A stretch of DNA of 64,000 bases from positions 372,001 through 436,000 of the forward strand of contig NZ_JBFCVL010000004.1 of assembly GCF_040712075.1 (NCBI RefSeq), in the 5' to 3' direction. Shown piece after piece: positions 43,130 to 45,437 of the stretch (position 1 is its first letter; each line of letters starts with the position of its first letter). The notes under the pieces were generated by a model. That model was not told the DNA's origin and did not search any database. It worked only from the letters and a program-made list of their open reading frames with translations. This DNA is from Fodinicurvata sp. EGI_FJ10296 (lineage in GTDB: Bacteria > Pseudomonadota > Alphaproteobacteria > DSM-16000 > Inquilinaceae). The position numbers and the translations under genes were made by a program.

Positions 43130-43534
43130 TCACCCTGCAGCCCGGATGCGAACCCGCGCGGCATCGGAGAGATAAGCTGACCGCGACTGTCCCGCGGTCT
43201 GAGCCGCCCGATCAATGGCATGAAGCAGATTCTCATCCATCGAGATGTTGACACGCACCGCCCTCGACGGAAGTTCATAGCTGATCAGCACCAGAACGCC
43301 GTCTTTGGCATCGTCTTCAAACGCTGGGTCGACCTTCAGTTCCCGCAAAGGCCGCGAGTCCGGGATCGGTTCGCCATCTTCAACCATACCCATGACATGA
43401 AAGGTCAATGCTTCGCTGCCCTTACGAATGGCCTCTTCCTCCGAAGGGCCGGTGGAGATGCAACCCGGAAAATCCGGAAAAGAAATCCCGAAAACCCCGT
43501 TCTCCTCATGAATCAACGCGTATGCCGTCGGCAT
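43130..43534 (-). CDS. hicB: HicB family antitoxin
   Basis: A 134-residue antitoxin. The N-terminal HicB fold 'AYALIHEENGVFGISFPDFPGCISTGPSEEEAIRKGSEALTFHVMGMVEDGEPIPDSRPL' is a degenerate RNase-H-like domain that blocks HicA. The C-terminal 'VRVNISMDENLLHAIDRAAQTAGQSRSAYLSDAARVRI' is a ribbon-helix-helix DNA-binding domain for autoregulation. ATG 43534 has AAGGAG nine bases upstream. It follows hicA by 32 bases. HicA is frameshifted, so HicB may persist without its toxin. Confidence 0.92.
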   Translation of the reverse strand: MPTAYALIHEENGVFGISFPDFPGCISTGPSEEEAIRKGSEALTFHVMGMVEDGEPIPDSRPLRELKVDPAFEDDAKDGVLVLISYELPSRAVRVNISMDENLLHAIDRAAQTAGQSRSAYLSDAARVRIRAAG

Positions 43535-43566
43535 CCAACTCTCCTTGCCTTGCCGTCGGTGTGGCT

Positions 43567-43756
43567 CTACCACCGCCAGCCCGCTTGCCGATAAACTGAT
43601 CTCAGCGTGTTTGTCGGTATTTCTCGCGCGCCCATATCGATTGTCACGTTTCCCGATTTGGTCGGATGGCTAAACTGAACATGATCACCAGGCCCCCCTG
43701 CGCTTGACTATCCAGCCGTCCTGTCGAAGAAGCTTCGCAAGGTCGCGCACCTTCAT
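43567..43756 (-). pseudogene. hicA: hicA toxin gene with a +1 frameshift in a G-run
   Basis: Reading from ATG 43756 gives MKVRDLAKLLRQDGWIVKRR then G-A-W-stop at 43685. In the next frame the protein continues as GPGDHVQFSHPTKSGNV, then TIDMGAREIPTNTLRSVYRQ and AGWRW before a stop at 43567-43569. Joined, this is a complete 62-residue HicA mRNA interferase, with the catalytic His (GDH) present. The break falls in a run of six G (minus strand, near 43693-43698); five would restore the frame. The cause may be a genuine mutation, a sequencing error, or slippage. Confidence 0.85.
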
Positions 43757-43778
43757 CGGACCGCGCTTGTTGCCCATC

Positions 43779-43816
43779 AATATAACCCATACCGATTTAT
43801 ACACAAGAATACACAA
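43779..43816 (-). promoter_or_regulatory. hicAB promoter with two direct repeats
   Basis: On the minus strand TTGTGTAT occurs twice with a 10-base period (43816-43809 and 43806-43799). TTGTGT at 43806-43801 and TATATT at 43784-43779 are 16 bases apart and could be -35 and -10. Repeats over the promoter would suit autoregulation by the HicB ribbon-helix-helix domain. A transcript start near 43772 supports ATG 43756 as the hicA start. Confidence 0.5.
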
Positions 43817-44019: not shown

Positions 44020-44325
44020 TCACCCGCCGCTGATTGCCGTCATAACGAGCATTTCCGAACGTGGCGGCAGCGGCGCGTCGAGGGTCGAACGCTGGCCGTT
44101 GACGAAAACATTGATGTGGCGGCGGATGGCGGGGCGGCTGTCGCAGATGCGATCGCGCATGCCCGGCCAGCGCGCGTCCAGCGCGTCGATCGCCTCCGCG
44201 ACCGTCGCCGCGTCGATCTTCATCCGCGTGACACAGTCCGGAAACAGGCGCGCCAAAGCCGTGGGAATGGTCACGGTCACAGGCGCGACCATTACCGCCG
44301 GTGCTGAAACGGTTGCCTGACGCAT
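44020..44325 (-). CDS. MoaD/ThiS family ubiquitin-fold protein
   Basis: A 101-residue small protein ending in TAISGG, the diglycine tail that MoaD/ThiS-type carriers need for adenylation and thiocarboxylation. 'VTVTIPTALARLFPDCVTRMKIDAATVAEAIDALDARWPGMRDRICD' and 'RRHINVFVNGQR' fit the beta-grasp fold. ATG 44325 has GAGAGGAGC nine bases upstream. It lies 29 bases after, and on the same strand as, a BNR beta-propeller protein, a pairing I recall from other proteobacteria without a known function. No E1-like (ThiF/MoeB) gene is in the window. Confidence 0.85.
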   Translation of the reverse strand: MRQATVSAPAVMVAPVTVTIPTALARLFPDCVTRMKIDAATVAEAIDALDARWPGMRDRICDSRPAIRRHINVFVNGQRSTLDAPLPPRSEMLVMTAISGG

Positions 44326-44354
44326 AGTGCGGCGCTCCTCTCCCGCTTCGGATA

Positions 44355-45437
44355 TCAGCCCGCGACCACCATCGTTTCCACCGAACTGATCTTGGGCAGA
44401 TGTTGCGTCACCCGCACCCAATTGTCACCTTCGTCGGCGCTGGCGTAAAGGCTGCCGGAATTGCTGCCGAAATAGACACCGGCCGGGTCCGCCGTATCGG
44501 TCGCCATGGCCTGGCGCAGCACGTTGAAATAGGCGTTCTCCTGCGGCAAACCTTCACGCAACGCCTGCCATGTTTCGCCGCGATCGCGGCTGCGCCAGAC
44601 GGCCGCCTTCGCATCGGGCACATAGCGGCCGGCGATATCGCCGTTCAGCGGCAGCAGGAACAGCGTCGACGGATCGCGCGGGTGGCTTGCGACCGGAAAG
44701 CCGAAACTGGACGGCAATCCGTTCTCGATCGAAACCCACTGCCGGCCGCCATCGTCGCTGCGATACATGCCGCAATGGTTCTGCTGATACAGAACATCCC
44801 GGCCACCCGGCGCCATGACGATATTGTGAACGCATTGGCCGAATTCCGGCTCGCGCATGTCCTCCGGCATGAAATCCGCGCGCGTCCCGCGATTGCGCGG
44901 CTCCCAGGTTTCGCCGCCATCGGACGTGTAGAAGACGCCGGCCGCCGAAATGCCGACCCAGATCCGTTTCGGATCCGCCGGATCGGTGACGATGGAATGG
45001 AGTATCAGCCCCCCGCCGCCGGGATGCCATTCCGGGCGTGACGGGTGACGCTGCAGACCGTCGATGTGAGTCCAGGTCGCTCCGTCGTCGTCGCTTCGGA
45101 ACAGGCCCGCCGGCTCCACCCCGGCATAGAGGCTGTTGCCCTTGCGCGCGAGGCTCCAGACCGTTTTGATCGGCTCCTCGCCCTCGGCATAGGCCAGTCC
45201 TTCGCTGGAATGGCTCCAGGTCCGGCCGAGATCGTCGGAGCGCCACACCGCCGGGCCGAACCAAGCATCGCCGCCCCCGGCAAAGATCGTCTCTGTCGCG
45301 GGATCGCCGATCGCATGGTTCAGGGGCCAGGTTTCGCAGAACGGGCCCCGCTGGCTCCAGCTTTTCCGCCCATCCTCACTTTCGAAGACGAACAGGCCCT
45401 TGGCCGTGGCCACCAACTGGACGACTTTTTCCGGCAT
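44355..45437 (-). CDS. BNR/Asp-box beta-propeller protein (sialidase-like, non-catalytic?)
   Basis: A 360-residue protein with at least six Asp-box motifs: SDDLGRTW, SDDDGATW, SDGGETW, SDDGGRQW, SRDRGETW and SADEGDNW. These lie on turns of beta-propeller blades. No signal peptide is evident, so it is probably cytoplasmic. The sialidase arginine triad is not obvious, so a hydrolase role is doubtful and a binding or scaffold role is possible. ATG 45437 has GGGGAAG upstream. It probably forms an operon with the downstream MoaD/ThiS-like gene. Confidence 0.82.
   Translation of the reverse strand: MPEKVVQLVATAKGLFVFESEDGRKSWSQRGPFCETWPLNHAIGDPATETIFAGGGDAWFGPAVWRSDDLGRTWSHSSEGLAYAEGEEPIKTVWSLARKGNSLYAGVEPAGLFRSDDDGATWTHIDGLQRHPSRPEWHPGGGGLILHSIVTDPADPKRIWVGISAAGVFYTSDGGETWEPRNRGTRADFMPEDMREPEFGQCVHNIVMAPGGRDVLYQQNHCGMYRSDDGGRQWVSIENGLPSSFGFPVASHPRDPSTLFLLPLNGDIAGRYVPDAKAAVWRSRDRGETWQALREGLPQENAYFNVLRQAMATDTADPAGVYFGSNSGSLYASADEGDNWVRVTQHLPKISSVETMVVAG

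Follow-up and report, generated by a model that had tools for sequence, protein, structure and literature searches.

MoaE, ThiG, CysM and BexX are the acceptor partners of their sulfur carriers, and in the CysO-CysM and BexX systems a dedicated partner is combined with a shared E1 enzyme. The locus considered here is similar to MoaD-MoaE and ThiS-ThiG in the ubiquitin-like fold and the GG tail of its small protein and in the two-protein logic, and the best solved relatives of its small-protein family are the CysO and BexX carriers (3dwg, 4n6e). However, the partner in the CysO and BexX systems is a PLP synthase or a ThiG-like barrel, whereas here it is an Asp-box propeller. The Asp-box propeller fold itself is shared with Ycf48/HCF136 and sortilin, and, judging by the titles of the entries, some of these structures hold peptides.

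Two described proteins belong to the same family as the propeller of this locus. One is 3b7f, an Asp-box protein of Ralstonia eutropha JMP134 (YP_299179.1). The other is PA1356 of Pseudomonas aeruginosa, whose N-terminus, as given in an excerpt of PMC6085387, matches the propeller of plasmid record L119. The partner in L119 is annotated as a 'MoaD/ThiS family protein' and, unlike the situation in the window, its gene lies upstream of the propeller gene. PA1356 is among the in-silico Tat candidates in a table of PMC6085387 and is said to promote biofilm in PMC11538994, where the relevant part of the text gives no evidence for this; no functional test of PA1356 was found in the excerpts of these two papers. 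Searches of the open literature yielded no description of the pair. In particular, the main text of PMC1779556, a survey of prokaryotic ubiquitin-like gene neighbourhoods, contains no mention of propeller, BNR, Asp-box, glycosyl hydrolase, sortilin, neuraminidase or sialidase.

The two genes are encoded on the minus strand of the window, that is, the whole 64-kb stretch of DNA that was analysed. The features are as follows.

44355..45437, minus strand: propeller CDS, 360 aa, Asp-box (BNR) beta-propeller of a seven-bladed family (ORF, profile matches, full-length solved relative 3b7f).
44020..44325, minus strand: small-protein CDS, 101 aa, ThiS/MoaD fold (CysO/SAMP1-like), ending in AISGG (ORF, profile matches).
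44326..44354, minus strand: intergenic spacer, 29 nt, with a Shine-Dalgarno-like AGGAG at 44335-44339 (sequence read directly).
44023..44037, minus strand: codons of the C-terminal AISGG tail, the presumed activation site (GG end in 115/122 paired loci).
44514..45401, minus strand: span with the nearly invariant propeller residues K13, W137, H204, Q219, H221, R271 and R308, the presumed top-face pocket (130-131 of 131 distinct propellers; positions from the model of a relative and the Asp-box topology described in an excerpt of PMC2716378).

The propeller ORF starts with the ATG at 45437 and ends with the TGA stop at 44357-44355. The small-protein ORF lies 3' of it, from the ATG at 44325 to the stop at 44022-44020, and its C-terminal sequence is MTAISGG. 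The 29 nt between the propeller stop and the small-gene ATG contain the AGGAG box at 44339-44335, nine bases 5' of this ATG. The ATG at 44292, internal to the small gene, is a possible alternative start, and the TTG at 44421, given as the start in the ORF list, is unnecessary for the small gene. Inspection by eye reveals no apparent signal sequence in the propeller. The ORFs, the gap and the lack of a signal sequence agree with the initial annotation, which had placed both ORFs at these positions with a 29-base gap and had described the propeller as lacking a signal peptide.

The same annotation had noted that no molybdopterin, thiamin or E1 genes were near. Indeed, the genome's own E1, MoaE, MoaD, ThiE, ThiO and ThiG (the last named by eye), used as tblastn queries, gave no match in the 64-kb window at E 1e-5. 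VOC, YciI, ECF-type sigma and MarR genes were not found in the window by the queries used. The neighbours of the pair read as acyl-CoA genes (by eye, with profile support for two). At 43130-43573 there is a HicB-like antitoxin gene, assigned by eye and having no NCBIfam match, with an apparent short hicA remnant upstream of it, near 43690-43780.

Conservation and gene order of the pair

The collected propellers, after removal of duplicates and of a weak archaeal match (L120), form a set of 131 distinct sequences. A partner small gene is present in the locus of 122 of them; in all 122 paired loci both genes are on the same strand, and in 120 the gap between them is within about 150 nt. Adjacency by chance is ruled out, since the pair recurs in 122 of 131 distinct loci and on the same strand in 122 of 122. 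The initial annotation had proposed a small functional module and had named absence of the pair elsewhere as the outcome that would speak against it; the survey of gene neighbours showed the opposite. The 38 pair-bearing genomes examined for this span 31 genera, and the pair occurs in two gene orders. Thus the pair is a real, widespread and co-inherited module, and the two proteins probably act together.

In a class-wide sample, a propeller at E 1e-20 or better was found in 35 of 190 genomes, at 38 places. Among the best 30 of these 38 places, 28 have a partner, taken as a ThiS/MoaD-like ORF situated beside the propeller and carrying SGG or AGG at the C-terminus or close to it (27 found by phmmer and one, L014, by eye), and two, L008 and L023, have none. 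The phylum-wide sample contains 299 genomes, of which 15 have a propeller match at E 1e-30, three of the 15 loci being from genomes already present in the class sample; 13 of the 15 loci have a partner, the exceptions being L131 and L135. A scan of genome contigs yielded at least 573 stretches encoding propeller relatives. Among the best 80 of them the partner is present in 79, one of these being cut by a contig end; these 80 are close relatives and add depth rather than independence. The analogous scan of viral contigs matched 42 stretches, none of which encodes a relative. Three actinomycete plasmid records contain the propeller, two with the partner (L114 and L121) and one without (L115). 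The record of locus L048 is named Mycobacterium sp. KBS0706; its small protein is very similar to the Inquilinus ones (L038, L040, L041), and the name may be wrong.

The tail of the small protein ends in GG in 115 of the 122 paired loci. Six complete small proteins have no terminal GG: one ends in GD (L031), two in IG (L039, L085) and one in LA (L114), and two extend past the GG (L004, L017). The reading frames of the latter two run well past SGG, similar to modifier precursors, or else this is an artefact.

The midpoint-rooted propeller tree contains 79 of the 131 distinct sequences, about one in three close relatives having been kept. One branch with 100/100 support divides the two gene orders, small gene upstream of the propeller and small gene downstream of it. 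Of the 23 rows on the upstream side, 22 (L021 among them) have this order and one lacks a partner; the downstream side contains 56 rows, 48 with the small gene downstream and eight without. The small-protein tree comprises 56 of the 122 partners and six outsiders; it has few columns and long branches, and its deep part is poorly resolved. The upstream group again forms one side of a well-supported branch (100/98), as would be expected from joint inheritance of both genes. On the other hand, plasmid-borne carriers linked to YcaO (see below) fall among the paired small proteins, so this tree does not show that the pairing arose only once.

For nine of the 131 propellers the locus contains no small gene. 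On the propeller tree the partnerless loci require four changes and are placed among paired loci, and so they read as cases of loss of the small gene. Whole-genome searches at E 0.001 found no member of the small family in four partnerless genomes (G117, G122, G434, G275), and none was found in the plasmid records of L111, L112 and L115, where the search covered these records only. In the plasmid record of L113 the sole match is weak (E 1.7e-6) and distant from the propeller. In Elioraea tepidiphila the 21-kb propeller locus contains no partner; the partner gene is elsewhere in the genome, and there is no propeller in the stretch fetched around it. The partnerless propeller L111 of Rhodobacter sp. 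CZR27 adjoins egtB and egtD, genes of ergothioneine biosynthesis. The annotated partnerless loci L112 and L113 have no egtB or egtD beside the propeller.

The small protein and the sulfur-gene context

The small protein of the window scores above the gathering cut-off of Pfam ThiS (PF02597; 24.2 bits vs 22.5) and ends in SGG, the C-terminal Gly-Gly of the ThiS/MoaD fold family, so the earlier description of a MoaD/ThiS-like protein with a GG end stands. Pfam ThiS matches all 26 members of the small-protein alignment A2 at E 0.01 or better. The models of bacterial MoaD (TIGR01682) and ThiS (TIGR01683) do not match the window protein up to E 1, and TIGR01683 matches three of the 26 A2 members at E 0.01. 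The best NCBIfam match is the small archaeal modifier SAMP1 (NF041918), whose model matches 26/26 A2 members at E 0.01 or better; however, the score of the window protein, 36.7 bits, is below the equivalog cut-off of 60. The closest solved relatives of the A2 profile are 4n6e_B (E 1.6e-16), which we take to be the partner of BexX, and CysO 3dwg_C (E 2.4e-16), presumably the partner of CysM, both with sulfur-transfer roles. CysO 3dwg_C is matched by the window protein alone at E 0.0098. Arginine 68 is invariant in A2 (26/26) and histidine 70 is conserved in at least 90% of its members, whereas 4n6e and CysO both have H and F at the aligned positions. By this comparison R68 and H70 are candidates for the surface on which the propeller docks.

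The window protein is not an ordinary MoaD or ThiS, as had been suspected, because the same genome contains dedicated moaD-moaE and thiO-thiS-thiE loci. Its MoaD is above the TIGR01682 cut-off (76.7 vs 66.15) and adjoins MoaE, which is above the Pfam cut-off and scores 157.5 vs the NCBIfam cut-off of 175. Its ThiS is above the TIGR01683 cut-off (58.8 vs 37.45), the gene order being thiO, thiS, thiG (by eye), thiE. Both loci lie elsewhere, which rules out a housekeeping MoaD or ThiS in the window. There is one clear E1 in this genome (E 1.1e-78). The Pfam ThiS search of the genome listed moaD and thiS and missed the gene of the window; it could therefore have passed over further divergent copies. 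The A2 family profile matches only the window gene in this genome.

An E1 is present in all 38 pair-bearing genomes searched for it and MoaE in 37 of them. This permits a carrier function rather than proves it, as both are common in control genomes (11/14 each). The E1 of the window's genome, used as the query, has no match in the flanks fetched for 106 long loci, a set that includes many close relatives and one genome fetched twice. In three of these loci (L046, L054, L061) true moaD-moaE genes occur within about 6 kb of the pair. Genes for VOC, YciI or ECF-type sigma proteins are near the pair in 28 of the 106 loci, and a MarR gene in 22. In the P. aeruginosa plasmid record L119 the pair lies among genes of these kinds; judging by an excerpt of PMC6180224, its sigma factor may be ECF42.

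Four other plasmid-borne relatives of the small protein were inspected, and three of them (L169, L170, L172) adjoin a YcaO gene and a MoeB/ThiF E1 gene; the fourth, L171, has no such neighbours in the stretch shown. TfuA is also present in L169 and L172, and LanM in L170. These three loci resemble thioamide RiPP clusters with their own sulfur carrier, and the gene context suggests delivery of sulfur to RiPP thioamides.

The propeller and its candidate pocket

The propeller scores 37.7 bits with the BNR model (cut-off 27) and is also above the cut-off of the Sortilin-Vps10 model. The solved relative 3b7f matches it over nearly the whole length (E 4.2e-78). A model of the relative L035, with the propeller and the small gene as one chain, superimposes on 3b7f with Z 51.2 (351 aligned residues, 41% identity), vs Z 29.4 for the next structural match. 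PMC2716378 describes 3b7f as 7-bladed and lists its function as 'Not known'; the tunnel is open and measures 9 by 11 A. Since this full-length relative is 7-bladed, the family has seven blades, not six; of the initial annotation of a six-blade-type Asp-box protein, the Asp-boxes are confirmed and the blade number is corrected. A GH33 sialidase is ruled out, as the sialidases listed in PMC2716378 have six blades, and the 'exo-alpha-sialidase' annotation of the propeller is probably wrong. The propeller does not belong to Ycf48, being far below the cut-off of model PRK13684 (26.6 vs 326), and it differs from sortilin, which has ten blades according to PMC2716378.

Besides Asp-boxes, glycines and prolines, the near-invariant positions are H204, Q219, H221 and R271 (131/131) and K13, W137 and R308 (130/131). 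All seven align with the corresponding residues of 3b7f, and L035 and the window propeller share the numbering at these sites. By the strand limits of the L035 model, K13, H221 and R271 are in loops between presumed strands 2 and 3, Q219 ends a strand 2, and W137, H204 and R308 precede a strand 1 or lie where it starts. According to PMC2716378, Asp-box propellers of known structure use only the top face for function, and active-site residues of the glycosidases are in loop 2-3. In the model, the seven residues would thus map to the top face and form a putative pocket. These residues are also kept in the nine partnerless propellers, so that the pocket would work without this carrier or with another one.

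AlphaFold was run twice on fused propeller and small-protein chains (50 and 104 rows). The pTM values, 0.81 and 0.79, are near the estimate for an undocked chain, in which the propeller makes up about 0.78 of the length. Neither run gave a confident docking, and confidence was low at the very end of the tail.

Possible roles of the two proteins

The reading that we prefer, with a probability of about 0.4, is that the two genes encode a dedicated carrier/acceptor pair, in which an E1-activated tail would deliver sulfur to the propeller. As in MoaD, ThiS and CysO, the GG tail would first be adenylated, here by the housekeeping MoeB/ThiF-type E1, and then turned into a thiocarboxylate. It would dock at the top-face opening of the propeller, the presumed site of K13, R271, R308, H204, Q219, H221 and W137, and the propeller would pass the sulfur on to a probably anionic acceptor held by its K/R/R and H/Q/H residues. 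In favour of this are the pairing in 28/30, 13/15 and 79/80 loci of the three samples, the opposite gene orders across the 100/100 branch, the GG end, the propeller invariants, the CysO-type solved relatives, the plasmid relatives linked to YcaO and E1, the E1 in 38/38 genomes and the Elioraea partner kept apart from the propeller. Against it are the nine partnerless propellers, the six partners with no terminal GG, the AlphaFold runs with no confident docking, the lack of E1 in the flanks of the 106 loci and the three cases of nearby moaD-moaE.

Some of these observations fit other explanations as well. The propeller may be a receptor and not an enzyme, a chaperone or regulator that only binds the small protein by its C-terminus, with no transfer of sulfur. 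Peptide-holding Asp-box propellers are indeed among the structural matches, by their titles 'YCF48 bound to D1 peptide' (5ojr) and sortilin, whose tunnel binds ligands, and the tunnel of 3b7f is open, 9 by 11 A (both from PMC2716378). However, the pocket is kept in propellers without the partner, AlphaFold did not dock the two chains with confidence, and the H/Q/H/R/R/K set looks more than a carboxylate clamp would need. We regard a pure receptor as rather unlikely. Alternatively, the propeller may be a metabolic enzyme with the small protein as just its structural subunit or activator, the GG tail having no covalent chemistry. The persistence of propellers without the small protein, the six complete partners with other C-termini and the lack of E1 beside the pair are consistent with that, but an idle tail would be expected to drift, and GG is retained in 115 of 122 loci over deep divergence. 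We regard such a subunit as unlikely.

Conjugation of the small protein to lysines, with the propeller as the target or adaptor and K13 as the boldest candidate for the acceptor site, is quite improbable. The entire A2 alignment is matched at E 0.01 or better by SAMP1, a model whose annotation reads ubiquitin-like small modifier, K13 is present in 130 of 131 propellers, and L004 and L017 have residues after GG, as modifier precursors can. On the other hand, the window protein is below the SAMP1 cut-off, K13 also occurs in the nine propellers with no partner in the locus, and no E1 was found in the flanks.

Returning to the carrier/acceptor pair, we tentatively extend it to a sulfur-transfer system in which a beta-propeller would serve as the catalytic acceptor for a ubiquitin-fold thiocarboxylate carrier and a sulfur-containing metabolite would be made. 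To our knowledge, no other propeller is an acceptor for a carrier of this kind. Sulfur carriers are usually understood via the acceptor enzyme, and here the conserved partner of a carrier-like protein has a fold that is not known to us in that role. If true, many Pseudomonadota, P. aeruginosa among them, and some Actinomycetota would have such a system. A crystal structure has been available for the propeller family since 2007, and common, culturable bacteria carry the pair. The finding recasts the propeller annotation as a testable two-protein system.
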